Shown piece by piece: positions 40,728 through 62,039 of a stretch of DNA of 64,000 bases. The position numbers were made by a program, and so were the translations under genes. Below the pieces are notes generated by a model. That model had not been told where the DNA came from. It saw only the letters and a list, made by a program, of their open reading frames with translations, and did no database searches. This DNA is from Verrucomicrobium sp. (GTDB lineage: Bacteria; Verrucomicrobiota; Verrucomicrobiia; Methylacidiphilales; UBA1321). The stretch spans positions 1 through 64,000 of the forward strand of contig JAFIGT010000008.1 in assembly GCA_017849585.1 (NCBI GenBank). Reading direction: 5' to 3'. Every line of letters begins with the position of its first letter. Positions within the stretch are counted from its first letter, which is position 1.

Positions 40728-40748
40728 TATAGTTTATTAATAGTAAAC
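40728..40748 (+). promoter_or_regulatory. Candidate IclR-regulator operator upstream of the regulator gene
   Basis: TATAGTTTA-TTAATAG-TAAAC contains a 7-bp palindrome (TAGTTTA/TAAACTA, 40730-40750). 18 of 21 positions match 41849-41869 read in reverse. It lies 82 bp upstream of the regulator start. Confidence 0.65.
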
Positions 40749-40776
40749 TACTGAAGTCTCATATTCTTACACTAAC

Positions 40777-40789
40777 AGACCTATAATAC
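40777..40789 (+). promoter_or_regulatory. Promoter core AGACCTATAATAC of the IclR regulator
   Basis: AGACC-TATAAT-AC carries a perfect -10 (TATAAT, 40782-40787). AGACCTA-A-AATAC recurs at 41807-41819 upstream of the 822-residue-protein gene, and CTTACA precedes it in both places. No clear -35 box. Confidence 0.55.
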
Positions 40790-40829
40790 TTATTTACAAC
40801 TTAACATATGTTCACTATAAACAAACAGA

Positions 40830-41645
40830 ATGCCGCGCGTCCTAACCCTCGACAAAAGCTTATCCGTACTGGAACTCGTTTTCTCCAAACGCGATGGGAT
40901 CGGCACCCGCGATCTGGCCGGACAACTCAAAGTCAACGTCGCCACCGCACACAACATCGCCCGTACCTTCTGCCTAAGAGGATACTTGCGCCAAGACCCT
41001 GACACCAAAGTTTTCTATCCCGGCATCCGACTCATGCTGATGGGACGGCACCCCTCCTATCTGCGCTCCCTCTCCCTCTCCGCCAGCAGCATCATCGACG
41101 ATCTCGCCAAAAAGCTGAACGAAAGCGTCATGCTCGCCTCGATCGATCACGGACACATTCTTAACCTCAAGTACGTCCCGAGTCGCCAAGCGTTACGCGC
41201 CCAAGAGTCGGAAGACATGAGCAGCCACTCCTACTGCACAGCCGTAGGAAAAATCTTGCTCGCCTCCCTGAGCGACTCCGAACTAGACAGCTACCTTCAC
41301 CACACCCCACTCCAGCGCCTCACCCCCCACACCCTGTGCACCCCCCAACTCGTGAAGGATGAGCTCAGGAAAGTAAAATCCCAAGGCTACGCCGAGACTC
41401 GAGATGAATTCTGCGAAGGCCTCAGCGCTGTAGCCGTCCCGGTACGCGATCCGTGGGGCAATATCGTTGCCAGCGTGGGAGCCAGCGCGCCCAGCGTACG
41501 CCTCCAAAAGACCAGCCAGCTCGACCACGCCCTGAACGAACTTCGCCGCGCCGCGAATGAAATCGAACTCCACTGGACCAATGCCCAGTCCACCCCCGGA
41601 GAAAAAGCCAAACGTCGCACCACCAAGGATCTTGCCGCCCAATAA
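40830..41645 (+). CDS. IclR-family transcriptional regulator
   Basis: The 271-residue protein has the N-terminal winged helix (VLTLDKSLSVLELVFSKRDG, IGTRDLAGQLKVNVATAHNI, ARTFCLRGYLRQDPDTKVFY) and an IclR effector domain with SVMLASIDHGHILNLKYVPS, SYCTAVGKILLASLSDSELD and CEGLSAVAVPVRDPWGNIVA. IclR proteins sense small carbon metabolites. The region upstream is AT-rich and carries an operator that is repeated before the next gene, so it probably autoregulates and controls the following 822-residue protein and isomerase. Basic tail GEKAKRRTTKDLAAQ. The ATG at 40830 gives family length. Confidence 0.92.
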   Translation: MPRVLTLDKSLSVLELVFSKRDGIGTRDLAGQLKVNVATAHNIARTFCLRGYLRQDPDTKVFYPGIRLMLMGRHPSYLRSLSLSASSIIDDLAKKLNESVMLASIDHGHILNLKYVPSRQALRAQESEDMSSHSYCTAVGKILLASLSDSELDSYLHHTPLQRLTPHTLCTPQLVKDELRKVKSQGYAETRDEFCEGLSAVAVPVRDPWGNIVASVGASAPSVRLQKTSQLDHALNELRRAANEIELHWTNAQSTPGEKAKRRTTKDLAAQ

Positions 41646-41806
41646 GCAAGACGCGCACCCCCGACTCACAACCCTTTCAAATCCGAATTATTCGTTTCGC
41701 GCAAAAAAGTTACTACGTTCATTTATAACGAACGACTAAGCAATCTCGCAAAAACAACCTAAATCATTATTACTACAGCATAAACAAGAAATCACCCTTA
41801 CATTAT

Positions 41807-41819
41807 AGACCTAAAATAC
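41807..41819 (+). promoter_or_regulatory. Promoter core AGACCTAAAATAC before the 822-residue-protein gene
   Basis: TAAAAT (41812-41817) is a -10-like box with the same flanks as 40777-40789. CTTACATTAT lies just upstream, like CTTACACTAAC at the regulator promoter. Confidence 0.5.
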
Positions 41820-41848
41820 CGTCGAAATCTCAAAAATTTATTTCTTGC

Positions 41849-41869
41849 GTTTAGTATAACTAAACTATA
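41849..41869 (-). promoter_or_regulatory. Candidate IclR-regulator operator upstream of the 822-residue-protein gene
   Basis: On the plus strand GTTTAGT-ATA-ACTAAAC (41849-41865) is a perfect palindrome. In reverse, TATAGTTTA-GTTATAC-TAAAC matches 40728-40748 in 18 of 21 positions. It lies 32 bp downstream of the promoter core and 110 bp upstream of the ATG. Confidence 0.65.
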
Positions 41870-41979: not shown

Positions 41980-44448
41980 ATGAAACGCCTCATTCTCGAA
42001 CTCAGCGTCAAACCCTTCCGCGTGATGACCGACGAGGCCATTCGCGCGGTCGTCGCTGACATTTGCTCTCAGTGGCACAATCTCATCTCTCGCGCCGACT
42101 CGCTTTCGTTCATGCTCTGGACCGCAGACGGCAGCGAAATCCTAGACTACCGTGGTAATCCGAATGACGAGATCTCCTATGCCAAGTGGATTGGTATCGC
42201 CAACTCGCCGCCCAATGATTCATGGCACAACAACATGAAGTGTCTGCATACGCAGCGCTTTCCCTATTGTGATAATCCCCCCCGCCTGACCTACGAGCGA
42301 CTCGCGTTCATCATTAAGTCGCTCAAAACTGAGAGTTCCCGCCTTACCGGCAAGCCGGTCACGGTCGGCACCACGTTCGATCCCGGTCCCGAATTCGCCG
42401 AATCCGATTTCAAGTACAAGCGCCACCCGGAAATCTGCAAAGGCACCATCATGGGCGCATCGCAGTGGGTTCACTGCGCGGCCGTCTTGCACGGAGACAA
42501 GGTTGCTTACGCCGGCTTCCCGAATGGCATCGAAGAAGGCACCACGCTCGGCACGTTCCTCGGCCGTCAGGCGCAACACTTTCTCACCGATCTGAATCTC
42601 GACTACATCTGGTTCTCCAACGGCTTCGGTTATTCGCTCGATTCGTGGAACGTCACGGGCGAAGCCTTTGATGGCAAGACCTTCGACGCGAGCATCGCCC
42701 CGAAGGTGCACCAGGCGATCCTCAAGTTCTGGCACGATTTCCGCAAGGAATGCCCCCATTACCGCATCGAAAGCCGCGGCAGCAATCTTTCCACCGGCAT
42801 GGATCTTTCCAGCGATGCCTCCCCGATGCGCGAAATCTATCGCGGCGGCTTCAATGTCATCGCTCCGGTCAATTCCCCCTGGGCGGCGCTCAATGCCGAC
42901 TATGGTCTGGAGCTCGTGGGCTGGCTCTCACACATCGCCGAATTGCCCGCTGGCAGCGGCGTGCCGTTCCGCTACTACATTCATGACCCGTGGTGGATGA
43001 ACAGCCCGTGGCTGGATCGTTATGGCCGTGAAGCGCACGATATTTATCTGCCGCTTTCCATTGGCCGCATCGACGAAAAGGGCGAGATGGCCTTCCCCGC
43101 GTCGGTCTCCATGCTCACGATCGACAACTCCTATGGCGAAATGCCGCAGGTTGTCCCGAACGAAGTGACGCCGCATATCCTGCGCGCGCTCGAAGATTTC
43201 CCGAACCAACCCGGTCTCATCACGTGGATCTATCCTTTCGAAGAATACCACAACTGGACCTTCGCCAAGCCGAGCCGAGCCAACGAAGTTTTCTTCGGTG
43301 ACTGGTTCATGCGCTCGGCGATCAATCAAGGTTTCCCACTCAACACAGTCGTCTCGACGGAGAATTATCTCTCCAGCCTGAAGGCCAAGCCCGCACTCTA
43401 TCAGGACACTATCTTGGTCTGCCCGCCGCCGGACGCCGGCTCCGCGTTGGCTAAGGCACTTATCGCCCATGTCAACAATGGCGGCAAAGCCCTGCTCTAC
43501 GGTCCCGTCGGTCATGCCGATCCAGAACTCCTCAAACTGCTCGAACTCAAGACAACCACGCCGCTGCCCGCTGGCGTGCTGGAATTCTCCACGACACTCG
43601 CAGCCGATCCGCTAGGTGATGGCAAATTCCCGACCAGGATGGAATTCCGCGATTGGCTTTCTGGCGGCGACATCAATACCGTCGTATCCGAAAAGTCTGC
43701 AGCCGGACTCACCGTTCTGGCCGAAGTCGCCTCTGGCAACGAACGCCGCGCCTTCGCTGTCACCCGTAAGCTCTCCACCGGTGGACAGCTCGGCTGGGTC
43801 CGCGGCGCTTTCAGCGAAAACGTCATCAAGGACGGCGATCATCTGCCCAAGAAAACCGACCCGCTCCAATGGTTCACCTCCGAGCGTGTCATGCGCTGGG
43901 CACTGCAATCGTTTGGATACTCCATCCGCTTCACCAAACCCTCCGCCGCCACGGTTGACCCGCTCATTCTCGCGGCACGGAAACAAAACGGCTGGTTCTT
44001 CTCCGGCTTCAGCCCCTCGACCAACATCGAACTCCAGTGGAAATTCCCGCTGGGCGCTCCCGTTCCCATTGGCTGCGACGTGCTGCTCAAGAACGGCGTT
44101 GGCAGCATGGTGCTTTCCCGCGCCTGGCATCGCGAATGCCGCGTCTTCGTCGAGCAGAACGAGAACACGGAAATCTCCTGCCGCGAGTGCCTCACGGGCG
44201 ATGTAGACATCGCCCGCCGCGTGCTCGTGCGCGGCTTGAAAAATGCCACCGTTCATTACCTGATCGATCCGGCCTACCCGGCGGATGACGTTTACTTCAG
44301 CCAAAACAATGCCTACACGGGCCGCGGAACAGCGATTCCCCACGCTGAATCGCAACCGGGCGTGCTCACGGCCAAGAATGTCACGGGAGAAATCCTGATC
44401 TCCTGCCGTATGAAAACATCGTTAACCCCTACCCCCTTCAACATATGA
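41980..44448 (+). CDS. Large uncharacterised protein, TIM-barrel/glycosidase-like
   Basis: The 822-residue protein has no signal peptide and no family I can name. Its N-terminal 450 residues read like a glycosidase-type TIM barrel with many aromatic residues (LSFMLWTADGSEILDY, LDYIWFSNGFGYSLDSWNVT, YRIESRGSNLSTGM, VPFRYYIHDPWWMNSPW, GLITWIYPFEEYHNWTFA). A GATase-like middle (DTILVCPPPDAGSALAKALI, NNGGKALLYGPVG) recalls the second domain of GH42 beta-galactosidases, followed by a beta-rich C-terminal part. Candidate acid residues (E in YHRIESRGS-like regions) cannot be assigned. Its stop overlaps the next start as ATGA, so it is co-translated with a fucose/arabinose-isomerase-like enzyme; both likely belong to one sugar pathway. 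Confidence 0.6.
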   Translation: MKRLILELSVKPFRVMTDEAIRAVVADICSQWHNLISRADSLSFMLWTADGSEILDYRGNPNDEISYAKWIGIANSPPNDSWHNNMKCLHTQRFPYCDNPPRLTYERLAFIIKSLKTESSRLTGKPVTVGTTFDPGPEFAESDFKYKRHPEICKGTIMGASQWVHCAAVLHGDKVAYAGFPNGIEEGTTLGTFLGRQAQHFLTDLNLDYIWFSNGFGYSLDSWNVTGEAFDGKTFDASIAPKVHQAILKFWHDFRKECPHYRIESRGSNLSTGMDLSSDASPMREIYRGGFNVIAPVNSPWAALNADYGLELVGWLSHIAELPAGSGVPFRYYIHDPWWMNSPWLDRYGREAHDIYLPLSIGRIDEKGEMAFPASVSMLTIDNSYGEMPQVVPNEVTPHILRALEDFPNQPGLITWIYPFEEYHNWTFAKPSRANEVFFGDWFMRSAINQGFPLNTVVSTENYLSSLKAKPALYQDTILVCPPPDAGSALAKALIAHVNNGGKALLYGPVGHADPELLKLLELKTTTPLPAGVLEFSTTLAADPLGDGKFPTRMEFRDWLSGGDINTVVSEKSAAGLTVLAEVASGNERRAFAVTRKLSTGGQLGWVRGAFSENVIKDGDHLPKKTDPLQWFTSERVMRWALQSFGYSIRFTKPSAATVDPLILAARKQNGWFFSGFSPSTNIELQWKFPLGAPVPIGCDVLLKNGVGSMVLSRAWHRECRVFVEQNENTEISCRECLTGDVDIARRVLVRGLKNATVHYLIDPAYPADDVYFSQNNAYTGRGTAIPHAESQPGVLTAKNVTGEILISCRMKTSLTPTPFNI

Positions 44449-46022
44449 AAGCCTCACAAGATACCGTCCTTCCGACCGAGCGCCCGGCCAAGGCCACGGC
44501 GGAATTGAAGTCCAGCACCACTCCGGCCAAAACCACCGCCGCGTCCACCGCACCGGTCACGGTGAAGCGTCTGCGCCCTCTACGCGCCAAGGCCGGCTTG
44601 CTCGGCATTGGTCACCACGTTTACTGGCCGCAATTTGACGGCCTGCTCGACGAAATGCATCGCAAGCTCGGCTACGCCAAAGGCCTCATCGAAGCCAATG
44701 GCCTCGAAGTTGCCGAATTCGGCATGCTCGATACCGCGCAAAAAGCGTACGACGTCGTGCCGAAGATTAAGGCCGCCGACATCGACATCCTCTTCGTCGA
44801 CATGGTCACCTACGGCACCTCGTCGACCTTCGGCATTCTCTGCCGCGAGATCCACGTGCCGATCGTGCTCATCGCCCTGCAACCACTCCAGGCGATGGAT
44901 TATCCGAATGGCACGACCTACATGCAGCTCTGCAACGATGACTTCTGCTCCGTGCCGGAATTCACCGGCGTCGCCGTCCGTTTCGGACGCCGCCCGCCGC
45001 CCGTCATCCTCGGTCACGAAGGCAATGATCCGATCGCTCAGAAGGAACTGAACCGCTGGTGCCAGATCGCCAAGGTGCTCCACGACCTGCGCCGTTCCCG
45101 CATCGGCCTGATGGGCCACGTGCTGGAATCGATGCTCGACATGCACACCGACCCCACGGCGATCACCGCCGCGTTCGGCCCGCACGTCGTGCTCATTGAA
45201 CCCGAAGACATCCTGCGGCATTACCTCGCCGCGCCGAAGGATCTCATCGATGCCAAGCAGGACGAAATTCTGAGCTTCTTCGATACGCCCGATCCGAAGT
45301 CGGATCCGCTCACCGAGAAGTTGACGCCAAAGGATCTCGAAACTGCCGCTCGCGCCGCGATCGCGCTCGACGGATTGATCAAGGAAAAGAAACTCGATGG
45401 TCTCGCCTACTATTATGAGGGCGAACCCGGCTCGCAACTGCGCACGCTGGTGACCAACCTCATCGTGGGCAATTCCCTGCTCACCGGAGCGGGCTTCCCG
45501 ATGTGCGGTGAGTTCGACATCAAGACCTGCATCGCGATGATGATCATGGATCGCCTCGACATCGGCGGCAGCTTCGCCGAATTCCACCCGGTGGATTTCG
45601 AGCGCGACAGCGTCCTCGTCGGTCACGACGGCCCGCACCACATCAACATCGCCGCGTCGAAGCCGGTCATCCGCAGTCTGAAAAAATACCACGGCAAGCC
45701 CGGTTCCGGCGCTGGCGTGGAATTCCAGATCAAGGAAGGCCCGATCACGATGCTCAGCATCGGCGTTACGGCTCAAGGCAAATTCAAGTTTGTCATCGCG
45801 GAAGGCATGTCGGCCAAGCGCCCCATCCCGCCGACCGGCAACACGAACACCCACGGCGTCTTCGCCCCGGACGTCCGCACGTTCTTGAAGAAGTGGGTCG
45901 CTGAAGGACCAACGCACCACTTCGCCCTTGGCATCGGCCATCACGGCGCGGAACTCGTCGAAATCGCCCAGATTCTCGGACTCGAGTACGCCGTCGTCAC
46001 GCCGCTCTCGTCGAGCATGTAA
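44445..46022 (+). CDS. L-fucose/L-arabinose isomerase family protein
   Basis: The 525-residue product has the aldose-ketose isomerase fold: VYWPQFDGLLDEMHRKLGYA, IDILFVDMVTYGTSSTFGIL, GLMGHVLESMLDMHTDPTAI, LAYYYEGEPGSQLRTLVTNL, and ITMLSIGVTAQGKFKFVIAE with PIPPTGNTNTHGVF in the C-terminal domain; E and H metal residues such as in YYYEGE and GHHG are visible. The first about 45 residues are a Lys/Thr/Ala/Ser-rich low-complexity extension not usual for the family. The substrate is unknown; the partner is an 822-residue uncharacterised protein. A strong terminator follows the gene. Confidence 0.8.
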   Translation: MKASQDTVLPTERPAKATAELKSSTTPAKTTAASTAPVTVKRLRPLRAKAGLLGIGHHVYWPQFDGLLDEMHRKLGYAKGLIEANGLEVAEFGMLDTAQKAYDVVPKIKAADIDILFVDMVTYGTSSTFGILCREIHVPIVLIALQPLQAMDYPNGTTYMQLCNDDFCSVPEFTGVAVRFGRRPPPVILGHEGNDPIAQKELNRWCQIAKVLHDLRRSRIGLMGHVLESMLDMHTDPTAITAAFGPHVVLIEPEDILRHYLAAPKDLIDAKQDEILSFFDTPDPKSDPLTEKLTPKDLETAARAAIALDGLIKEKKLDGLAYYYEGEPGSQLRTLVTNLIVGNSLLTGAGFPMCGEFDIKTCIAMMIMDRLDIGGSFAEFHPVDFERDSVLVGHDGPHHINIAASKPVIRSLKKYHGKPGSGAGVEFQIKEGPITMLSIGVTAQGKFKFVIAEGMSAKRPIPPTGNTNTHGVFAPDVRTFLKKWVAEGPTHHFALGIGHHGAELVEIAQILGLEYAVVTPLSSSM

Positions 46023-46036
46023 GACGTTGCCAATTA

Positions 46037-46077
46037 AAAACCGTCACGTTTCCTAGTGAAGCGTGACGGTTTTTTTA
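46037..46077 (+). terminator. Rho-independent terminator of the IclR-linked unit
   Basis: AACCGTCACG-N14-CGTGACGGTT (inner TTC-CTAGT-GAA pairs too) followed by TTTTTTT, 15 bp after the isomerase stop. A mirror A-tract upstream means it may also work for the convergent mannosidase gene. Confidence 0.9.
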
Positions 46078-50735: not shown

Positions 50736-50869
50736 GATGAAGCAAACTAATCAGAGCGGTGGAAAAGTCAAGGGAGTATCCGGTCGGCGCGGCAACATGA
50801 GATTATTTGATACAAAAATGATTTTAAATGATTTGACTAAATCTCAATTTGAATTATTCTACTCACAAC

Positions 50870-51820
50870 ATGAACGAGTCCCTCCCCTCCTCTTCTACTA
50901 CGCCTGACTCGGCTTCGCGTTTCGATCTGGTAGGCTTGGGTTATTGCAGTTGGGATTTTCTCTGTGTGGTGCCTGAAGTGCCGATCGATGGAAAAGTAGA
51001 GCTTCTGAGCCGTTTGGAGCAAGGGGGTGGCCCTTCCGCCACGGCAACTTTCGCCGCCCAGCGGTTGGGCGCGCGCACGGCTTTCATCGGGGCCATCGGG
51101 AACGATGAGGTGGGGCGGAAGATTTTGAACGATTTTGGGGCCGAAGGCGTGGATGTCTCCGCAATGAAAACGCGGATCGGTGAGGAGTCGGGAGTGAGTT
51201 ATTGTTGGGCCGAGCAAAAGAAGGGCCGGCGCAGCATCGCGTGGACTCGCGGGACGGCCTCGCCGCTTCGCCCGCAGGAAATCAATGACGCCTTGCTTCG
51301 CTCCTGTCGGGTGCTGCATTTGGATGGTCATCAAACCGAGGCTGCCATCCACGCCTCCGCAGTGGCGAAGGCGGCAGGAGTTACAGTCTGCCTCGATGCC
51401 GGGACGATCGTGCCGGGCATCGAGCTCATTCTGAAGCATGTGGATATTGTCATCGCTTCGGAATCGTTCGCGGAGCGCTATACGCAGGAAAACACCATCG
51501 AGAAACAGCTGTTCGCATTGAAAAAGAACGGTGCGCGCTGGGTGGTGATCACCTGCGGCGAGCGCGGCAGCCTGGGCTATGATGGGCAGGAATGGATCAA
51601 GGTTCCCGCGTTTCGCCTCGCCCAGGTCGTCGACACGACGGGCGCGGGTGATGTCTACCATGGCGCCTTTCTGAAGCATTATCTCGATGGCGCAGCGCTC
51701 GGCGACTGCATGCGATTTGCCTCCGGCGCCGCGGCGCTCAAATGCGGCGCGCTGGGTGGACGCACGGCCATTCCAACGCTGGCCCGGCTCAATGAATTCC
51801 TCCATCAATCCCATCCCTAA
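50870..51820 (+). CDS. PfkB-family sugar kinase
   Basis: The 316-residue kinase has the two PfkB signatures: EQGGGPSATATFAAQRLGAR near residue 55 and DTTGAGDVYHGAFLKHYLDG (catalytic base D261). N-terminal FDLVGLGYCSWDFLCVVPEV and GVTVCLDAGTIVPGIELILK fit a ribokinase-like subunit that phosphorylates a sugar or sugar-acid 1- or 6-OH. I chose the ATG at 50870 (MNESL); a TTG at 50849 would add seven residues. It is the first gene of the sugar run, 13 bp before the IolB-like gene. Its position beside IolB resembles the IolC step of inositol breakdown, but the sequence does not resemble IolC closely. Confidence 0.9.
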   Translation: MNESLPSSSTTPDSASRFDLVGLGYCSWDFLCVVPEVPIDGKVELLSRLEQGGGPSATATFAAQRLGARTAFIGAIGNDEVGRKILNDFGAEGVDVSAMKTRIGEESGVSYCWAEQKKGRRSIAWTRGTASPLRPQEINDALLRSCRVLHLDGHQTEAAIHASAVAKAAGVTVCLDAGTIVPGIELILKHVDIVIASESFAERYTQENTIEKQLFALKKNGARWVVITCGERGSLGYDGQEWIKVPAFRLAQVVDTTGAGDVYHGAFLKHYLDGAALGDCMRFASGAAALKCGALGGRTAIPTLARLNEFLHQSHP

Positions 51821-51833
51821 TGAAAAACGCTCT

Positions 51834-52622
51834 ATGAACTTTCATCTCCCCTGCAAGGCGGACAAAGGCTTCAATCGCATTCTCAACATTGGTCAGGCCG
51901 AAATGGCGCTCACCGGTTTCGGTCTGCTCAAACTCGCAGCTGGGGAGACGTTTTCGACGACCACGGGAAACTTGGAAGTGGCCTTGGTCATTCTGGGTGG
52001 ACGTTGCGCGGTGCGCGGGAAGGAGTTTGATTTTCCAGTGGTGGGTGAACGCGCAGATGTGTTCTCCGGGCTGCCATACACGGTGTATCTACCCACGGGA
52101 ACGTCCTATGAAATTGTGGCCACGAGCGAAGTGGAGATCGCCGTATGCGAGTCCCCCTCCACGCGACGCCTCGGCTCAGCGGCACTGATTGGGCCGGACC
52201 AGGTGAAGAGCCTTTCGATTGGTCGCGATAATTTCACGCGACAGGCGCTGATCATGCTCGATGACAAATTTCCCTCGGAACATTTCTTCATCGGCGAGGC
52301 GCTGGTTCCCTCGGGTAACTGGGCGAGCTTCCCTCCGCATCGGCACGAGTTCGACAATCTGCCTGCAGAAGTCGACATGGAGGAGATCTACTTTTTCCGG
52401 TTCAATCCGAAGGGAGGTTTCGGTGTCCAAAAAATCTATACCGACAGCCGCGACATCGACGTGGCCTACACCGTGCAGGAGAACGACACGGTGGCAATCC
52501 CACGCGGGTATCATCCGGTGGTCAATGCGCCGGGCTACACGATGTATTACCTCTGGGTCATGACGGGCAATACTCGCGGCTTCATTAATTTCAAGGACCC
52601 GGCCCATAGCTGGATAAAATAA
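51834..52622 (+). CDS. 5-deoxy-glucuronate isomerase-like protein (IolB family)
   Basis: The 262-residue bicupin resembles IolB: PPHRHEFDNLPAEVDMEEIY with metal ligands H169, H171, E184, then the second histidine H227 in PRGYHPVVNAPGYTMYYLWV and the tail NTRGFINFKDPAH. IolB isomerises 5-deoxy-glucuronate to 2-deoxy-5-keto-gluconate in inositol catabolism. The ATG at 51834 is preferred; the same frame extends upstream inside the kinase gene, which has no support. The preceding PfkB kinase and the downstream class II aldolase would fit IolC and IolJ. No iolG, iolD or iolE gene is seen in the window, so the true substrate may differ. Confidence 0.88.
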   Translation: MNFHLPCKADKGFNRILNIGQAEMALTGFGLLKLAAGETFSTTTGNLEVALVILGGRCAVRGKEFDFPVVGERADVFSGLPYTVYLPTGTSYEIVATSEVEIAVCESPSTRRLGSAALIGPDQVKSLSIGRDNFTRQALIMLDDKFPSEHFFIGEALVPSGNWASFPPHRHEFDNLPAEVDMEEIYFFRFNPKGGFGVQKIYTDSRDIDVAYTVQENDTVAIPRGYHPVVNAPGYTMYYLWVMTGNTRGFINFKDPAHSWIK

Positions 52623-52652
52623 CCACTTCACCAGCCTCAAAATCATTTTTTC

Positions 52653-54170
52653 ATGAACGCGAACCGACTTCTCGGCATCGATTTTGGTACGGGCGGCTGC
52701 AAAGTCAGCGTGATCGATTTCGAGGGCAAGTTAGTCGCCTCGCACGCGGAAGAGTATCCGACGAGTCACCCACAACCGGGATGGGCCGAGCAAAATCCAG
52801 CGGATTGGTTTCCAGCCCTAGTGCGGTGCCTGCAGCAACTCTGGCAGAGTGGGCGAGTTCAGCCGCACGAAATCGCCGCCCTGGCGCTGGATGGATCGAC
52901 TCACAACGCGGTGTTGCTCGACGACAAGGACAAGGTGCTGCGACCGACAATCATGTGGACCGATCAGCGCAGCGTCAACGAATCCGTCTGGCTATGCCAG
53001 CACCATGTGGACGCCATTTTCCAGATTGGTTATCAGCGGCCCACTCCCACGTGGACCTTGCCGCAGATGCTGTGGATCAAGAATCACGAACCAGATATTC
53101 TCTCGCGCGTGGCCCGGATTCTCTTCGTGAAGGATTACATCCGTTACCTGCTCACGGGAGTAGCGGTCACGGACTACATCGAAGCACAGGGCACCTTGTT
53201 CTTTGATGTGGCCAATAAAAAGTGGTCGCCGGAATTGTGCGCGCTCGCGGGCGTGCCGCTGAAAGCGTTGCCGAAAGTGGTGACTCCAATTGATCGCGTA
53301 GGAGCCGTGACCGCGCAGGCCGCTTTCGCGACCGGCTTGGTGGAAGGAACGCCGGTGATTTGCGGCAGCTCCGATTCCGCCGTGGAGGACTACGCCGCCG
53401 GAGCCATCGAACCGGGACAAGCCATCGTCAAGCTGGCCACAGCCGGCAACGTAAATGTGATGATTGACCGTGCCGTGCCACATGAACGGACTTTGACTTA
53501 TTCCCATGTGGTACCGGGTCTGTGGTACTCAGTCACGGCGACGAACGCGGCCGCTACTTGTCTGCGTTGGTTCCGTGACCATTTTTGCGCAGCGGAAGCG
53601 CGACAGGCGCTGGACCGGGGCGTGAGCCCTTACCAGATCATGGGCGAACTCGCCGTCCAATCACCCGTGGGGGCGCACGGTCTTTTCTTTCATCCCTACT
53701 TGCAGGGTGAACGATCCCCCTACTGGGATCATGCGTTGCGGGCGAGTTTCACGGGTATTTCCATGTCGCATACAAAGGCGGACTTTGTCCGGGCGTTGAT
53801 GGAGGGAGTGGCCTTCTCCCTGCGCGACTGTCGGCGCGTGCTCGATGAGATGAAATTGCCGATCCACGAAGTACGTCTCATTGGCGGTGGCGCGAAGGAT
53901 GCGCTGTGGGCCCAGATCGTTTGCGATGTCTTGGCCACGCCGGTGGTGTTGCCAGCCAACTCGGATGCCTCGGCCGGTGCCGCCATGCTGGCGGGCGTGG
54001 GTATCGGCGTATTTGCCGACGAACGTACCGCCGCAAAAAAGTGTGTGCAGATAATGAGCGTCCTCACTCCCGACGCCAACAGGGTGGCTGCTTACGCCAG
54101 ACAGTTTGAAACCTATCGCCGCCTGCATGATGTACTGGCCGACATCTATCACGAGTCGGCGGGAAAATAA
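52653..54170 (+). CDS. FGGY-family carbohydrate kinase
   Basis: The 505-residue kinase has the N-terminal actin-like motif GIDFGTGGCKVSVIDFEGKL, SLALDGSTHNAVLLD-like AALALDGSTHNAVLLDDK, MWTDQRSVNE, and the C-terminal PYLQGERSPYWDHALRASFT followed by EGVAFSLRDCRRVL and VRLIGGGAKDALWAQIVCDV, as in xylulokinases and related sugar/polyol kinases. Substrate could be a ketopentose, hexulose or polyol. It follows the IolB-like gene after 30 bp and precedes the FAD oxidase by 3 bp. A run with two different sugar kinases (PfkB and FGGY) hints at two phosphorylation steps or two substrates. Confidence 0.9.
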   Translation: MNANRLLGIDFGTGGCKVSVIDFEGKLVASHAEEYPTSHPQPGWAEQNPADWFPALVRCLQQLWQSGRVQPHEIAALALDGSTHNAVLLDDKDKVLRPTIMWTDQRSVNESVWLCQHHVDAIFQIGYQRPTPTWTLPQMLWIKNHEPDILSRVARILFVKDYIRYLLTGVAVTDYIEAQGTLFFDVANKKWSPELCALAGVPLKALPKVVTPIDRVGAVTAQAAFATGLVEGTPVICGSSDSAVEDYAAGAIEPGQAIVKLATAGNVNVMIDRAVPHERTLTYSHVVPGLWYSVTATNAAATCLRWFRDHFCAAEARQALDRGVSPYQIMGELAVQSPVGAHGLFFHPYLQGERSPYWDHALRASFTGISMSHTKADFVRALMEGVAFSLRDCRRVLDEMKLPIHEVRLIGGGAKDALWAQIVCDVLATPVVLPANSDASAGAAMLAGVGIGVFADERTAAKKCVQIMSVLTPDANRVAAYARQFETYRRLHDVLADIYHESAGK

Positions 54171-54173
54171 TTT

Positions 54174-55649
54174 ATGAGCAACAATCTGACAACGATCATG
54201 GAATCATCGCGCCTTGCCGGGCGCAGTTACGTCGATGCGATGATTCGCAGTGAGTTGACCGATGCTGTGGGCGCCGACTATGTGTCGAGCAACGCAGCCG
54301 ATCAGCTCGGTCATTCCATCGACTACTATTGGATTCCCGAAATGTGGCATGACCGCGGCCGGGAAAATCCCAAGGCGCAATACATCGTGCATCCGGGCTC
54401 CGCTGAGGAAGTGGCGAAGGTCTTGCGCATTGCCAATAACTATCGGATTCCCGTCACGCCGTGGGGCGGTGGCTCGGGCTCACAGGGCGGTGCATTGCCG
54501 ATGTACGGCGGGATCATTCTCGATACGAAGCGCATGAACAAGGTGATCAACATCGACACCGAGGCGCTGACTGTAACAGTGGAGACAGGGATGAACGCCC
54601 AGCACATGGAATGGGCGGTGGAGAAGAAGGGTTTCTCCACGATGCACTTCCCGGCCTCAATTGCTTGCGCGACCATTGGCGGTTTTCTCGCTCATCGCGG
54701 CACCGGGGTGCTCTCGACCAAGTACGGCAAGATCGAGGACATGGTGATGTCCATCGAAGTGGTCACGCCGGAAGGCGAGATTATCAACACACTGCCCGTG
54801 CCACGCCATGCCTCGGGCCCCGACCTGACGCAACTTTACCTCGGTAGCGAGGGCACGCTCGGCGTGATCACGAAGGTCACGCTCAAGATTCATCCGATCC
54901 CGCAGTGTCGCAAATTCCACGCCTTCCTCTTCAAGGATATGCATCAGGCCATGACGGCGGGGGCGAACATCATGCGCAGCCGCTTGCGTCCGTGCGTCAT
55001 CCGCCTCTATGACGAACCGGAGACGGCGCGGTTGATCAAGCGGGTACTCGGACTCGACAAGCAGGGCGCGTACCTCGTTTTCGGCTTCGACGGGTTTGAG
55101 TCTGTCGTGAATCTCGAAATGGCCGAGGCCATTCGCATCTGTCAGCGCGAGAATCCCGAGGATCTTGGCGAGGAAATGGGACAGGCGTGGTGGGATCACC
55201 GCTACAAGTTTTTCTATCCGCCCTACATGTTTCACATGCCACAAGCTTTCGGCACGCTCGATACGGTGGCAACCTTTGCCAATATCGAGAAGGTTTACTG
55301 GGCGATGAAAAATGTGGTGAACCAGAACTTCCCCGAGGCGGCCTTCATCGGCCATTACTCGCATTGGTATGAGTGGGGTTGCATGCTCTATGCCCGCTTC
55401 ATTGTCGAAAATCCCCCACGCGATCCGGAGGAGGCGACTGCTTACTACAATCGCATTTGGGATATGGCGATTCGCGCAGCCATAGCGAATGGCGGCGTAA
55501 TCAATGAGCACCATGGTGTTGGTCTCAAGCTGGGACGTCTGATGAAGGATCTCTACGGCCCCGCCTTCAAGGTTCTTGCCGACATCAAGAAGGTGATGGA
55601 CCCGAACAATATCATGAACCCTGGCAAGATGGGATTTCGAGGAGTATAG
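54174..55649 (+). CDS. FAD-linked oxidase (VAO/GlcD type)
   Basis: The 491-residue flavoprotein has the PCMH-type FAD-binding domain (YRIPVTPWGGGSGSQGGALP, MYGGIILDTKRMNKVINIDT, HFPASIACATIGGFLAHRGT) and the C-terminal FAD-oxidase cap with PDLTQLYLGSEGTLGVITKV and the active-site-type NGGVINEHHGVG. It resembles GlcD, D-lactate and alkyl-glycerone-phosphate oxidases. Together with the next gene it should form a flavin/Fe-S dehydrogenase for a hydroxy acid, sugar acid or polyol phosphate that passes electrons to quinone. Substrate unknown. It overlaps no gene but is only 2 bp from the Fe-S gene. Confidence 0.88.
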   Translation: MSNNLTTIMESSRLAGRSYVDAMIRSELTDAVGADYVSSNAADQLGHSIDYYWIPEMWHDRGRENPKAQYIVHPGSAEEVAKVLRIANNYRIPVTPWGGGSGSQGGALPMYGGIILDTKRMNKVINIDTEALTVTVETGMNAQHMEWAVEKKGFSTMHFPASIACATIGGFLAHRGTGVLSTKYGKIEDMVMSIEVVTPEGEIINTLPVPRHASGPDLTQLYLGSEGTLGVITKVTLKIHPIPQCRKFHAFLFKDMHQAMTAGANIMRSRLRPCVIRLYDEPETARLIKRVLGLDKQGAYLVFGFDGFESVVNLEMAEAIRICQRENPEDLGEEMGQAWWDHRYKFFYPPYMFHMPQAFGTLDTVATFANIEKVYWAMKNVVNQNFPEAAFIGHYSHWYEWGCMLYARFIVENPPRDPEEATAYYNRIWDMAIRAAIANGGVINEHHGVGLKLGRLMKDLYGPAFKVLADIKKVMDPNNIMNPGKMGFRGV

Positions 55650-55651
55650 AT

Positions 55652-56728
55652 ATGTATAGTGAAAAATTTACAGAAACGATCCATGCCTGCCGGTTTTGCT
55701 TCATGTGCCGGCACCTGTCTCCGGTCGGTAATGTGACGTACCGCGAATCGGATACGCCGCGCGGCCGCGCGTTGATGCTCGACAAGGTCTTGCAGCAACC
55801 GCAACTGCTGGAGAACCCGGACTTTCAATCCACCATCTACGACGCGGAGTTAAGCGCGGCCTGTCGCACTCATTGCGTCAGTCATTTTGACGAGGCTGGC
55901 CTGTTACTGGCCGCCCGACGAGATATTGTCGAGAGTGAGAAAGTCCCCGCCTCTATCAGGCAGGTGGCCGATTCGATCAAGGCGCTGCCGCTCACCGTAA
56001 AGGGTGAAGCCAAGGCTGAGCTGATCTACTACGTGGACCGCTACACCGAGCGACACCAGCCGGAGATTGCGGTTGCAATGGAAAAAATCCTCAAGTCTGC
56101 TGGCATCCGCTTTCAAATGATTTCCGGTGCCGATACAGGCAAGGCGCTGTCCGTCCTCGGTTACTGGAATGACGCCAAGGAAGCGGCAACGAACTTTGCC
56201 AGAATGGCACGCTCTGGTGAGCAGAAGCTAGTGATCACCTCGTGCCCGGCTTCGTATGACTCACTGAAGAATGATTTCCCCAAGTACGGCATTGATTTGG
56301 GTAAGGAGCTGGAGGTACTCCACACTTCGGAATTCCTGCAGCGTCTCGTGAGAACAAGCCAGCTACCGCTGGGTCCGTTAGCGATTCAATCGGTCTTTCC
56401 GCTGGCAAGCGATTTCCTCAAGAACTACAACGCGGGATTCAAGGCCCACGAGGAGTTGGCGACGTTGGCGGGAGTCACCCTGTTGCCGTTTGGATTCAAT
56501 CGTGAGGAGTCGTATACGGCGGGCGAAGGCGGTGTGGTGATGGACGAACTCAATCCACGGCTGGTCTCGAAACTGGTCCAACATGTTTTCGAACAGATCG
56601 ACAATCCCGAACAGGACACACTTCTGGTTCTGTCTCCCTACACGAAATATGTCCTCACCAAATTCGCGCCGAAAAAAATTCAGCTCACGACCGTTGAAGA
56701 ACTGATCGCCGCCCGCATCAAGGAATAA
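55652..56728 (+). CDS. Fe-S oxidoreductase subunit (GlcF/CCG-like)
   Basis: The 358-residue protein has C13-x2-C16-x2-C19 (HACRFCFMCRHLSPVG) and C71-x3-C75 (AACRTHCVSHFDEAGLL), enough for one 4Fe-4S cluster; the second CP-type motif of full GlcF is missing. A later C198 in VITSCPASYDSLKNDFPKYG fits one CCG-domain cysteine. It follows the FAD oxidase by 2 bp, so it is very probably the electron-transfer partner. The reduced cysteine count compared with GlcF suggests a divergent branch. No transmembrane helix is seen. Confidence 0.82.
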   Translation: MYSEKFTETIHACRFCFMCRHLSPVGNVTYRESDTPRGRALMLDKVLQQPQLLENPDFQSTIYDAELSAACRTHCVSHFDEAGLLLAARRDIVESEKVPASIRQVADSIKALPLTVKGEAKAELIYYVDRYTERHQPEIAVAMEKILKSAGIRFQMISGADTGKALSVLGYWNDAKEAATNFARMARSGEQKLVITSCPASYDSLKNDFPKYGIDLGKELEVLHTSEFLQRLVRTSQLPLGPLAIQSVFPLASDFLKNYNAGFKAHEELATLAGVTLLPFGFNREESYTAGEGGVVMDELNPRLVSKLVQHVFEQIDNPEQDTLLVLSPYTKYVLTKFAPKKIQLTTVEELIAARIKE

Positions 56729-56730
56729 AA

Positions 56731-57558
56731 ATGTCACTCGTTACACTCAGGGAAATTTTGCCCGCCGCTCGCACCGAGGGGAAAGCCGTCTGCGCCTTTA
56801 ACTTTGCCGACTCCGGAACAGCAGAAGCGGTGATCGATGCCGCAGTCGCGGAGAATCGCCCCCTCATTCTTCAGGTCTACCAGCGCCTGATTGGCTATCC
56901 CCACATTGACGCGCTCATCGCAATGGCGCGAAAACTTGGAGAGAGCAGTCCCATTCCCGTCGCGATTCATCTCGATCATGGCGCTTCGCTGGATCAGATC
57001 AGGAAGGCAATCGATCTCGGATTTACATCCGTGATGCTTGATGGATCAACGCTGTCGCTCAAAGAGAATATCGAGATCACTCGCCAAGGCGTGGAGATCG
57101 CGCACCGCGCGGGTCTTTCCATCGAAGGCGAAATCGGTCATGTGCCAGCCAATGACCGTCAGCCTACTCCCTACTCTGACCCTGCGGAGGCAGAATTGTT
57201 CGCTCGCGAGACCGGCGTTGATGCTCTCGCTGTTGCCGTGGGTACGGCGCACGGTTTCTACACGGAAACACCGAAGGTCAGTGTGGAGATCGCCGAGGCT
57301 GTCAGCCAACGCGTGAAAATCCCCATGGTCTTGCACGGTGGCTCCGATACGCCTCGCGACAAAGTGCGTGCGATTGTCCGCTGCGGCTTTGCCAAGGTAA
57401 ACATCGCGACCGAATTCCAGTACGCCTACCAGCAGGAAATCAAGCGCACCCTCAACGAGATGGATGCCAAATTCAAGCCAGTGGACCTGATTCTTAAGCC
57501 AGCCATCGCCAAGGCATCGGCACACGCGGCTGAAATCATTCGCTTCCTCGGAGAATAA
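56731..57558 (+). CDS. Class II fructose-bisphosphate aldolase family protein
   Basis: The 275-residue zinc aldolase has AIHLDHGASLDQIRKAIDLG (D82 and metal ligand H83), SIEGEIGHVPANDRQ (E-type metal region), AVAVGTAHGFYTETPKVSVE (H174) and PMVLHGGSDTPRD (H202), the ligands and base of class II aldolases. This branch is shared by GatY, KbaY, FbaA and IolJ, so the substrate is open. Next to IolB and a PfkB kinase it may act as the IolJ step (DKGP to malonate semialdehyde and DHAP) or cleave a ketohexose/ketopentose phosphate. It lies 2 bp after the Fe-S gene. Confidence 0.88.
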   Translation: MSLVTLREILPAARTEGKAVCAFNFADSGTAEAVIDAAVAENRPLILQVYQRLIGYPHIDALIAMARKLGESSPIPVAIHLDHGASLDQIRKAIDLGFTSVMLDGSTLSLKENIEITRQGVEIAHRAGLSIEGEIGHVPANDRQPTPYSDPAEAELFARETGVDALAVAVGTAHGFYTETPKVSVEIAEAVSQRVKIPMVLHGGSDTPRDKVRAIVRCGFAKVNIATEFQYAYQQEIKRTLNEMDAKFKPVDLILKPAIAKASAHAAEIIRFLGE

Positions 57559-57584
57559 CCGCTTTCTCGAGAAGCGGAAAATCG

Positions 57585-58799
57585 ATGAACTTCACCAAAA
57601 ACTACGACGTCATCGTAGCTGGCGCAGGTATGGCCGGCATTGCGGCCGCATTGGAAGCAGCGCGTTCGGGGCTGCGTACCGCTTTGGTGGAAAAAACGGT
57701 CTTTCCGGGCGGCCTCGCCACCTCGGGTCTGGTCTATTTCTACCTGCCGATTTGTGACGGCTATGGAAGACAGGTGAATTTTGGCATCGCCGAGGAGTTG
57801 TTGCACTTATCGTATCAATGCGGTCCGGGCGAGGTTCCGGCGAACTGGCGGCAATCGACCCGGGAAAAGCCACTGGGCCGCTATCGGGTCGATTTTTCCC
57901 CAGCAGCGTTCATTCTCGCGCTGGATCAATTACTCACTGAGGCAAATGTCGACATCTGGTACGACACATTGATTTGCCAGACGATCGTCGAAACCGGATG
58001 TGCCGCCGGAATCGAGGTAGAGAACAAGAGCGGACGCGGAAGCTTGCGAGCGTCGGTCCTCATTGACGCCACCGGCGATGGAGATGTGGCTTTTCGCGCT
58101 GGCTGTTCCTTCGACGAGGAAACAAACAAGACAACCCTCTGGGCCATGCAAGCCTCACTGGAGCGCGCCCGCGAAGCGGTGGAAAGAAGTGAGGGAACGC
58201 GACTGATGTCCTTCCACCAAATCGGTAGCGAAGGCGAAGAGATTCGGAGCGACATCAAAGCCAAAACTTATCCCTGGAAAGGAACGGATGGCCGTTCGGT
58301 CTCTCATTTTCTTCTCAAGGGTCGGAGTGTCCTGCGCGAACACTACGAAAAAATGCGCGCCAAAGGCTATCGCCGTCAGGATTTATTTCCCGTAACGTTA
58401 CCCGCCATGGCGCAATTCCGCACAACACGCGCAATTCGCGGCCGATTCACTCTCCAGGCTGGCATGGCAGGGCAACGATTCGAGGACAGTATCGCCCTCG
58501 CCGCCGATTGGCGCAAACGCGGTTCGGTGTGGGAGATTCCCTATGGATGCCTGATTCCTTCCGTGCCGGGATTGGTAACAGCAGGCCGGTGCCTTTCTTC
58601 GGTCGGCGATGCGTGGGAAGTGACCCGATCCATCCCGATCGCCGCGCACACGGGACAGGTAGCCGGTATCGCCGCACGATTGGCGATTGCGCGGAAAACG
58701 ACACCGGATATGCTTCCCGTTGCGGATGTGCAGGCCGAGTTACGTCGCAAGCAAATGCCCTATCACCTGGCCGATCTGACCCAAGAGGATGTCAAATGA
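57585..58799 (+). CDS. FAD-dependent oxidoreductase (PF12831-like)
   Basis: The 404-residue protein has the FAD Rossmann motif YDVIVAGAGMAGIAAALEAA, PGGLATSGLVYFYLPICDGY, the second FAD strand LIDATGDGDVAFRAGC and the C-terminal VTAGRCLSSVGDAWEVTRSI and PIAAHTGQVAGIAARLA. It matches flavoproteins often encoded in PVC sugar clusters with no known substrate. A GxGxxG-type loop binds FAD; no Fe-S motif. It follows the aldolase after 26 bp and overlaps the cupin gene as ATGA, so it is co-translated. Confidence 0.82.
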   Translation: MNFTKNYDVIVAGAGMAGIAAALEAARSGLRTALVEKTVFPGGLATSGLVYFYLPICDGYGRQVNFGIAEELLHLSYQCGPGEVPANWRQSTREKPLGRYRVDFSPAAFILALDQLLTEANVDIWYDTLICQTIVETGCAAGIEVENKSGRGSLRASVLIDATGDGDVAFRAGCSFDEETNKTTLWAMQASLERAREAVERSEGTRLMSFHQIGSEGEEIRSDIKAKTYPWKGTDGRSVSHFLLKGRSVLREHYEKMRAKGYRRQDLFPVTLPAMAQFRTTRAIRGRFTLQAGMAGQRFEDSIALAADWRKRGSVWEIPYGCLIPSVPGLVTAGRCLSSVGDAWEVTRSIPIAAHTGQVAGIAARLAIARKTTPDMLPVADVQAELRRKQMPYHLADLTQEDVK

Positions 58800-60043
58800 G
58801 CCCCGAATCCATCGCCTCACGCGCACTTGACCAGGGGGGCGGCATTGTTCATTTCGCGCCAAATTGGGTTCCGCGCTTTTTATCCGTGCCCGGAAAGCGA
58901 CTCCGCCTGCATCCAGATGATTACTATGCACTGGGAGCCCAACGAGGCGGCATCAGCGAACGCTGGCTTGCTTCAACGGTGAAGGCTGACAACGGCCCCT
59001 TGACCTCTCCCAATGAGGGCTTGAGTGAAATCGTGATGAGGGACGGCCGCGTGGAAAATCGGGTGCTCTTTCGCGATGCGGTGTCCACATTGAAGCAGGA
59101 ATTGATTGGAGAGACTCTCTGGCAGGACTACGGCGGCTGGCCGATGTACGCCAAGTTTTTTGACACACGTGGCGCGATTCCTTTTCACATTCATCCTCGG
59201 GATTGTCACGCCAAGCTCGTCGGCCAATCCGGCAAACACGAGTCTTACTATTATCCCCCGCAGCTTAACAATCATGGGGGCGATTTTCCCTATACCTTCT
59301 TTGGATTCGATCCGGGCACCACGAAGGCGCAGGTGCGCGAAGCCTTGATCGGTTTCGCGAAAGGTGACAACAGAATCCTGAGCTTATCGCGCGCCTACAA
59401 ACTGGAGCCGGGCACAGGATGGGATGTTCCGCCAGGAATTTTACATGCTCCGGGGAGCCTCTGCACGTACGAGCCCCAAAGTAATTCGGATGCCCGAGCG
59501 GTTTATCAATCCCTGGCCGGAACGCGACTCATTCCGGAGGAGATGCTCTGGAGGGATTCACCACCGGAGAAGCGCGGCGATTATGATTACCTCCTCGAGG
59601 TGATCGATTGGGAAGCCAATGTCGATTCACAATTCATGGCGCATCATTTCATGCCGCCGCTTCTCATCCGTCCTGCGGATGAGATGCCCGGATACAGCGA
59701 GCGATGGATTTGCTACCGCTCCCCCTTCTATAGCGCCAAGGAACTCACGGTGAATCCCGGAGAGATTGTAACGCTATCCGATACTGGAGCCTTTGGATTA
59801 GTTCTGGTGCAAGGACACGGCAAAATCGGAGAATGGAAAGCGGAATCACCGGGAATGATTCGCTATGGACAATTGACCTGCGACGAATTCTTTGTGAGCG
59901 CCAAAGCCGCGCGCGATGGAGTGGTTTTTGTGAATGAATCCTCCTGCGAGCCGATGGTACTCCTCAAACATTTCGGGACGGCGCACCCGGAGCTGGCAAC
60001 ATTTCGCAGTCCAATCGAAAAACAAGCGGTCACCCGAGACTAG
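58796..60043 (+). CDS. Cupin protein, mannose-6-phosphate-isomerase-like
   Basis: The 415-residue protein has a cupin with PFHIHPRDCHAKLVGQSG (metal-type histidines) and WDVPPGILHAPGSLCTYEPQ (second motif), plus a C-terminal second cupin-like region (ELTVNPGEIVTLSDTGAFGL). The layout is that of type I mannose-6-phosphate isomerases, but ManA-specific catalytic residues cannot be confirmed by eye. The start at 58796 gives the ATGA overlap with the FAD gene; an upstream in-frame reading enters that gene and was rejected. It may isomerise a phosphorylated sugar made by the two kinases. Confidence 0.78.
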   Translation: MSPESIASRALDQGGGIVHFAPNWVPRFLSVPGKRLRLHPDDYYALGAQRGGISERWLASTVKADNGPLTSPNEGLSEIVMRDGRVENRVLFRDAVSTLKQELIGETLWQDYGGWPMYAKFFDTRGAIPFHIHPRDCHAKLVGQSGKHESYYYPPQLNNHGGDFPYTFFGFDPGTTKAQVREALIGFAKGDNRILSLSRAYKLEPGTGWDVPPGILHAPGSLCTYEPQSNSDARAVYQSLAGTRLIPEEMLWRDSPPEKRGDYDYLLEVIDWEANVDSQFMAHHFMPPLLIRPADEMPGYSERWICYRSPFYSAKELTVNPGEIVTLSDTGAFGLVLVQGHGKIGEWKAESPGMIRYGQLTCDEFFVSAKAARDGVVFVNESSCEPMVLLKHFGTAHPELATFRSPIEKQAVTRD

Positions 60044-60059
60044 TCGGGGAGAATTTTTT

Positions 60060-62039
60060 ATGAGCCAAAAGAAAATTTCGTCTTCTGAATCTTTTCTATC
60101 AAACGGGAAATTCATCACTGGCGTCAACTACTGGCAATCTCAGACGGCAACTGAAATGTGGTCGAAATGGGACGAAAGGGAAGTTGATAAGGACTTTAAG
60201 GCCCTAGCCGCCCAAGGGGCACGAGCCCTGCGAGTGTTCCCGCTCTGGCCCGATTTTCAACCTATCACGCGAATGTACCTCGGCGATGGCACCCCCACGA
60301 GTGAATTTCGTTTTGGCGAGGAACCTCTTCCCAAGACCGAGGCGGGTCGTGCGGGAGTAAGCGAAGTGATGATGCAGCGCTTCGAGCGGCTTGCAGACCT
60401 TGCCTCGAAGCACAAGCTTTCCTTAATCGTGGCGCTCTTGACGGGGCAAATGACTTACCGACTCTACATGCCGCCAGGACTGGCGGGCTTGAGCCCGTTG
60501 AATCATCCCGTGGCACTGACATGGGAGAGACGTTTTGTTCAGTATTTCGTCAGCAGAATGAAGGGGCATCGCTCCATCGTGGCGTGGGATTTTGGCAATG
60601 AATGCGATATGTGGAAAACCGCCAGCCGGGAAGAAGCCTGGTCCTGGATGGCGTACATCTCCGACGCCATCCGGATCTGCGATCCGAAGCGGCCCATCGC
60701 CTCGGGGATGTCGGCCCGACATGTGGATGACTCCGTCTTTTCCAAGGAAAACTGGCCAGTTCAATCGCAAGCCGAACATTGCGACATCCTGACCTCCCAT
60801 TCCTATACTCAATGGGGATTTGGCGGCAGCGACCCCTGCGACACGATCAAGCAAACGACCGCGCCCACGGTGGAAGTGCGGCTGGCAACCGACATCAGCG
60901 GCAAACCGGCGTTCATGGAGGAAATCGGATTGGCCTGGCGTCCCATGCTCGCCAGCTATGATCGGCTCGGCGCCTACATTCGCAATAATCTCTGGAACCT
61001 TTGGGCTGACGATTGCCGTGGACTTCTGTGGTGGTGCGGATTTGATCAATCACACCTTGGGATCGCGCCGTACAACTGGGAAGTACCCGGACCGGAACAT
61101 GGGATCATGGATCGAAACCGGAAGCCATGGAGTAGCGGCTTGGAGCTGAAAACGTTCAGAAGTTTTCTCGATGAATTGCCTTTTGACACACTCCCGGCCG
61201 CAGAAAAAAGAGCCGTCTGCCTGATCGGGGATCATCGACAGAAACAAACTGCCGCAGCCACCGGAGCTTACATCCTGGCCAAACAGGCTGGCTTTAATTT
61301 GGAATTTCAGCACGCCAATCAACCTCTGAAGCCGGCATCGCTTTACCTCCTCCCCTCGGCCAAAGGAAAATGCGGATTATCGATCGAGGGATTGGAGAAT
61401 TTGAAGCAAGCGGTACGCCGGGGTGCCTCTCTTTACCTATCGACGGATGACGTTTACATGCCCGACATCGCCAAGTTGTTTTCTGCGGAGGTGGAAAACC
61501 GTTTTGGAAAGGAGGACCGTTTCACCTTCGATTTCCAACTGAATACGGGTCCCCTCAACCTGACACTCCCCCTCAAGACCACTTACCAGATGAAGCCCCT
61601 CGGCGCTCGCGTACTGGGGCGATCATCAGAAGGATCACCAATCTTTTTTGAAGCGAAGCATGGCAAGGGAACCGTTTTCCTCCTCAGTTTTCCGCTGGAG
61701 ACCACCATGGCCGAAACCCCACTCGCCTTTCTCGACAAAGATTCGGCCGAGGCGTGGAAAATCTATGGCCATATCGCCAAGGATATCCTCGCGATGCGCG
61801 CTATCGTCAAAGAGAATCCCCAGCTATTCGTAACGGAGCATCGCCTTTCTTCTACAGAGATGGCCTGCCTGGCGATCAACAATGGGCCGCAACGAATCAT
61901 CTCCACCCTGTCTCTTAGAAAAGGTTGGCGATTCAAGACATGTTATTCCGAAAATGGATCCGCCAAATCAGGCGTAAAGGGAGTGAATTTAAGCCTCGCT
62001 GGAAATTCGGGGGCGGTACTGCTGTTGACCAGAAAGTAG
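60060..62039 (+). CDS. GH5-like glycoside hydrolase, cytoplasmic
   Basis: The 659-residue protein opens with FITGVNYWQSQTATEMWSKW and AAQGARALRVFPLWPDFQPI, then WDFGNECDMW, with the acid/base in NE (N180, E181), and PAFMEEIGLAW (nucleophile-type E288). This is the GH5 clan-A pattern of cellulases and mannosidases. About 200 C-terminal residues form a GATase-like and beta-rich part (SLYLSTDDVYMPDIAKLFSA, TVFLLSFPLETTMAETPLAF). No signal peptide, so it acts on imported oligosaccharides. GGGGAGA lies just upstream. It closes the run, 16 bp after the cupin gene. Confidence 0.82.
   Translation: MSQKKISSSESFLSNGKFITGVNYWQSQTATEMWSKWDEREVDKDFKALAAQGARALRVFPLWPDFQPITRMYLGDGTPTSEFRFGEEPLPKTEAGRAGVSEVMMQRFERLADLASKHKLSLIVALLTGQMTYRLYMPPGLAGLSPLNHPVALTWERRFVQYFVSRMKGHRSIVAWDFGNECDMWKTASREEAWSWMAYISDAIRICDPKRPIASGMSARHVDDSVFSKENWPVQSQAEHCDILTSHSYTQWGFGGSDPCDTIKQTTAPTVEVRLATDISGKPAFMEEIGLAWRPMLASYDRLGAYIRNNLWNLWADDCRGLLWWCGFDQSHLGIAPYNWEVPGPEHGIMDRNRKPWSSGLELKTFRSFLDELPFDTLPAAEKRAVCLIGDHRQKQTAAATGAYILAKQAGFNLEFQHANQPLKPASLYLLPSAKGKCGLSIEGLENLKQAVRRGASLYLSTDDVYMPDIAKLFSAEVENRFGKEDRFTFDFQLNTGPLNLTLPLKTTYQMKPLGARVLGRSSEGSPIFFEAKHGKGTVFLLSFPLETTMAETPLAFLDKDSAEAWKIYGHIAKDILAMRAIVKENPQLFVTEHRLSSTEMACLAINNGPQRIISTLSLRKGWRFKTCYSENGSAKSGVKGVNLSLAGNSGAVLLLTRK

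Follow-up and report, generated by a model that had tools for sequence, protein, structure and literature searches.

Glycoside hydrolases of families GH42 and GH164 carry their catalytic Glu residues on strands 4 and 7 of the barrel, these being Glu160 (beta4) and Glu297 (beta7) in GH164 (PMC7105311). In GH151 the nucleophile is Asp154 on beta4, and the acid on strand 6 is a Glu (PMC10154630). For L-fucose isomerase the reference residues are Glu337, Asp361 and His528 (PMC6894278). Here we describe a gene pair that joins an 822-aa protein of predicted GH42-type architecture to a sugar isomerase-like protein; our literature search found no description of this pair. The genes lie in a 64,000-nucleotide stretch of DNA (the window; contig C30) from a Verrucomicrobiota genome of 4.79 Mb. 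The closest named relative, with 89% identity in the 822-aa protein and 98% in the isomerase, is the MAG Verrucomicrobia bacterium Tous-C9LFEB, one of the MAGs reconstructed from Spanish freshwater reservoirs (PMC5673642).

The locus and its putative regulation

Both ORFs, and the ATGA overlap at which the stop codon of one meets the start codon of the other, were found exactly where they had been predicted (Table 1), making translational coupling of the 822-aa protein and the isomerase possible. The original prediction also saw the locus as a compact, self-contained unit. This view holds for the IclR-family gene and for the terminator hairpin 3′ of the isomerase gene (-26.9 kcal/mol, z -7.5), which a simple terminator scanner missed. 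It does not hold further, as a GH38 gene (assigned by Pfam) runs convergently toward the pair just past the terminator and the pair recurs across phyla. Nor is this the only locus of the 822-aa family, which is widespread and has a second member in the same genome (a paralogue on contig C2, 42% identity).

Table 1. Features of the locus, in window positions.
Feature	Positions	Strand	Basis
Candidate operator palindrome, one mismatch to GTTYNNTATAANNRAAC	40732-40748	-	
Candidate operator palindrome, 5′ of iclR	40810-40826	+	
IclR-family regulator gene, 5′ of the 822-aa ORF	40830-41645	+	Pfam IclR_C 1.8e-32
Candidate operator palindrome, 3′ of iclR and 5′ of the 822-aa gene	41717-41733	-	
Candidate operator, palindrome GTTTAGTATAACTAAAC	41849-41865	+	
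822-aa ORF, unnamed family	41980-44448	+	ORF call
ATGA stop/start overlap, 822-aa ORF/isomerase ORF	44445-44448	+	sequence
525-aa isomerase-like ORF, L-fucose/L-arabinose isomerase fold	44445-46022	+	Pfam, NCBIfam
Intrinsic terminator hairpin and T run, between convergent genes	46037-46073	+	folding energy

The window holds three exact copies of the palindrome GTTYNNTATAANNRAAC and a fourth with one mismatch, all at 40732-41865, against an expected 0.13, a figure that is not a clean test because the palindrome was spotted by eye and then counted. In a close relative (L003) the same four positions are kept, two of them exact and two with one mismatch. This clustering and conservation make GTTYNNTATAANNRAAC a good IclR operator candidate, and the four palindromes around iclR are likely its operator. 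The whole genome has eight exact sites; besides those in the window, three are on contig C2, close to two IclR paralogues and at a distance of 6-12 kb from the paralogous 822-aa gene. Several IclR paralogues of the genome may share GTTYNNTATAANNRAAC. IclR homologues (60-66% identical) lie near the 822-aa-family gene in both G089 and G139 as well, and the paralogous 822-aa gene of the source genome has two IclR paralogues in its vicinity. On contig C2 (L153, C2:10000-29000), the paralogous gene is preceded by two IclR paralogues, an SGNH-type esterase and an alpha/beta hydrolase, and large glycosidase-like proteins are encoded there as well.

Further along the window, genes running in one direction at 50849-58799 encode a PfkB kinase, a KduI/IolB-type isomerase, an FGGY kinase, an FAD-linked oxidase, an Fe-S-type protein, a class II aldolase and an FAD oxidoreductase, a run that resembles an operon for inositol- or uronate-like catabolism. 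A pathway common to this cluster and the pair was not established, since the FAD oxidase/Fe-S pair lies near these genes at only one other locus (L107). Two proteins beyond the cluster have no Pfam match: one of 415 aa (58796-60043), cupin/phosphomannose-isomerase-like by eye, and one of ~660-701 aa (59934-62039), whose motifs WDFGNECD and FMEEIGLAW resemble the acid/base and nucleophile of clan GH-A and which is possibly a GH5-like enzyme with a GATase-like domain. The source genome (4.8 Mb) is rich in GH-A-like enzymes, with 29 GH42-profile matches.

Distribution and linkage of the pair

The 822-aa protein had been described as belonging to no recognisable family. For Pfam, NCBIfam and PDB sequences this is true: the single sequence gave zero matches in Pfam and in NCBIfam and nothing of value against PDB sequences (phmmer), and profiles built from 13 and 45 relatives were equally without match, the 45-member one in all three. 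When the 45 relatives were scanned singly we found scattered weak matches, the relevant ones being the GLMA second domain and the GH42 trimerisation domain (E ~0.07; for Glyco_hydro_42M one member of the 45, E 0.074), both from barrel-plus-GATase-like glycosidases. A number of recent GH families lack a Pfam model, and the architecture of the protein is typical of GH families by Foldseek, so that it could belong to an existing CAZy family that has neither a Pfam or NCBIfam model nor a solved structure; the silence of even the 45-sequence profile against these collections makes this unlikely.

Relatives share 35-89% identity with the 822-aa protein. The family is present in 54 of 388 Verrucomicrobiota genomes, in 3 of 12 genomes of the source's own family, and at 13 genome loci including those of Larkinella, Paenibacillus, Ruminococcus-type and Kiritimatiellae genomes. 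Conservation across phyla (89% identity in L003; 54/388 genomes) rules out a chance ORF, and the relatives in many genomes rule out an orphan gene. A viral origin was also rejected, as viral contigs held no match to the family and viral fold matches were poor; plasmids gave a single partial match. Spread over Verrucomicrobiota, Bacteroidota and Bacillota yet absent from Pfam and NCBIfam, the family marks a genuine gap in current annotation. No signal peptide is present in the 822-aa protein, and a hydrophobic N-terminal extension is absent in 48 of 51 members and present in three, including the Larkinella protein. Judged by this hydrophobicity rule, which is not a signal-peptide predictor, the pattern suggests a family that is cytoplasmic in most species and exported in a few.

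Counting the isomerase subfamily at > ~400 bits with split fragments added, we observe it in 63 of the 388 genomes. Both families occur together in 51 genomes, the 822-aa family alone in 3, the isomerase alone in 12 and neither in 322, giving a co-occurrence odds ratio of ~456 (p 3e-48, with genomes treated as independent and kinship ignored). The genes are neighbours in 31 of the 51 genomes, lying within ~1.3 kb and always on the same strand, in both gene orders. They are adjacent in Paenibacillus and Ruminococcus-type genomes too, where the 4-base overlap is found again with the gene order reversed, and in Larkinella both genes belong to a single SusC/SusD locus that also holds two GH106 genes and a GDSL esterase. 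Additionally, distances among the 822-aa proteins correlate with those among the isomerases (Mantel r 0.44, p 0.001).

Clustering the neighbours of ~50 loci gave the isomerase and regulators (AraC, IclR) as the recurrent partners, with occasional SGNH esterases and no other enzyme as frequent as the isomerase. Pilin-like prepilin genes also recur near the loci and are probably genome background. Elsewhere the neighbours include GH106, GH95, GH94, GH3, GH10, SusC/SusD and esterases. Because the nearby glycosidases vary among loci, no substrate emerges from them, and a search for a fixed substrate among neighbours did not find one. The strong pairing with one isomerase subfamily makes the function testable, since the sugar specificity of the isomerase would point to what the 822-aa enzyme probably produces.

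Predicted structure and conserved residues of the 822-aa protein

An AlphaFold2 model built from 13 sequences (mean pLDDT 82.6, pTM 0.86) has a TIM barrel (~1-455), a GATase/Rossmann-like domain (456-645) and a beta-sandwich (648 to 810-812), with low confidence at residues 336-350. The eight barrel strands in the model span residues 3-9, 41-47, 127-133, 209-212, 262-265, 328-332, 373-379 and 414-418. The top Foldseek matches were full-length GH42 (5e9a, E 1.1e-11) and GH164, followed by GH112 (E ~6e-6). In VIA many barrel enzymes scored Z 11-13; for GH42, GH35-type, GH164 and GH151 the alignment covered ~500-540 residues. TM-scores were modest (0.4), indicating a common architecture and not close homology. 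HMM-HMM comparison matched residues 445-696, in the middle and C-terminal region, to GH42 (probability 83%, E 9e-6), which supports homology of that part to GH42; the barrel did not align with GH42 or GH112. Folded alone, the barrel was modelled less confidently (pLDDT 63), and no structural family stood out, with Cwp19, GH20, GH35-type, GH151, GH156 and beta-amylase all at Z 11-13. Altogether, model, Foldseek and VIA agree on the TIM-barrel/GATase-like layout that had been proposed and support a protein built like GH42. The comparison with GH42 suggested in the original prediction thus recovered the architecture, with catalytic residues that differ.

We placed a 48-sequence alignment on the predicted strands and found that, of the three domains, conservation is highest in the barrel. 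Conserved polar residues are enriched at the C-terminal ends of its strands (15/32 vs 22/143, p 2.5e-4), and near-invariant residues stand at the strand ends throughout: E7/K11, D50/E53, D134/E138, N214, R266/N269, R331/H335/D336, D382 and E422. The acids among them that are nearly invariant are D134, E138, D336, D382 and E422; H149, R266, N269, N298 and R331 do not vary at all, and H335 is nearly invariant. Residues of this kind at all strand ends point to a working active site in the predicted barrel. Strand 4 is followed by an invariant S213-N214-G215, with no conserved acid before D231 (90%), and strand 7 carries D382 (Asn in two members), with no conserved Glu before E395 in the next helix. 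On the predicted strands, then, neither the clan GH-A Glu pair (beta4/beta7) nor the GH151 dyad is present in the family.

Without the strand-4 and strand-7 Glu pair, the barrel may be dead or non-hydrolytic. The lost clan GH-A acid/base position and the ATGA coupling would fit a GH-like protein that has no catalytic activity and instead binds sugar or serves as a scaffold for the isomerase. We consider such a protein highly improbable: every barrel strand end is near-invariant and polar or acidic over the 48 sequences, and at least two of the three members with a predicted hydrophobic leader have no isomerase detected nearby. A non-hydrolytic enzyme that uses the same sugar as the isomerase, such as a lyase or transglycosidase, would account for the missing glycosidase dyads, the invariant His, Arg and Asn residues, and the tight link to one metabolic enzyme with no fixed polymer-degrading partner. 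The close architectural matches are GH-type glycosidases, phosphorylases or transferases, however, and we regard such an enzyme as unlikely.

The reading we favour, and consider fairly probable as a whole, combines a GH42-like glycosidase or phosphorylase, a hand-over to the isomerase and control by IclR. The 822-aa protein would represent an unnamed, widespread, mostly cytoplasmic family of carbohydrate-active enzymes with a GH42-type architecture and a different active site. As we infer the order of reaction, its substrate would be a glycoside or small oligosaccharide, which it would split hydrolytically or phosphorolytically, releasing an aldose that the isomerase would then convert to a ketose, and the IclR protein would control expression via the repeated palindromes. 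The 12 genomes with the isomerase but without the 822-aa protein count against this reading. A more specific version, which we hold tentatively, is that a new GH or phosphorylase family has a relocated catalytic apparatus (candidate residues D134/E138 after strand 3, D336 after strand 6 and D382 after strand 7) and, with a dedicated isomerase subfamily, forms a conserved route of two enzymes for a sugar without a known pathway. The proposed new glycoside hydrolase or sugar-processing class is plausible; the absence of the clan GH-A residues that GH42 would lead one to expect speaks against it.

Comparison with known isomerases and glycosidases

The neighbour had been called fucose/arabinose-isomerase-like, and both C-terminal Pfam domains score above cut-off, PF02952 (Fucose_iso_C) at 35.7 vs 29.3 bits and PF11762 (Arabinose_Iso_C) at 34 vs 25 bits. 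It falls far below the NCBIfam equivalog cut-offs for L-arabinose isomerase (51 vs 622 bits) and sulfoquinovose isomerase (42 vs 700 bits), matches solved L-arabinose isomerases weakly in sequence, and has a non-conserved N-terminal extension of ~40 aa. E356 and H491 show no variation across 22 isomerase sequences; at position 325, Glu is replaced by Asp in one and by Lys in another. Owing to this Lys, not every member can be assumed to be active. E325 aligns with the Glu of the L-arabinose isomerase TTFE motif, which we take to be the catalytic Glu306. By analogy with L-fucose isomerase, E356 and H491 are plausible metal ligands. The partner shares the L-fucose/L-arabinose isomerase fold, with E325, E356 and H491 near known metal-ligand positions, and forms a subfamily of its own.

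Among the glycosidases and phosphorylases, GH112 galacto-N-biose/lacto-N-biose phosphorylase is alike as a three-domain barrel enzyme that Foldseek recovers; membership found no support, as hhalign with 10 GH112 sequences was not significant and the protein has no Lact_bio_phlase (PF09508) match. The GH151 alpha-L-fucosidase 6tvk has a similar barrel, Rossmann domain and C-terminal beta domain (VIA Z 11.3) and no sequence match to the 822-aa protein. The acid D336 lies after strand 6, where GH151 has E235, but the family has N214 and no conserved acid on beta4, where GH151 has its nucleophile.

With GH42 and GH164, the 822-aa protein shares the same order of barrel, GATase-like trimerisation domain and beta-sandwich, a full-length Foldseek match and, for GH42, the HMM match of the middle domain. 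It differs in having ~10% identity, S213-N214-G215 on beta4 and D382 on beta7. GH42 membership was rejected on the Pfam Glyco_hydro_42 cut-off, below which the protein falls, and on the missing catalytic Glu pair, and on the catalytic residues, with beta4 SNG and no conserved acid there, GH164 and GH151 membership was rejected as well. If active, the 822-aa enzyme would be a GH42 scaffold running with different catalytic residues.
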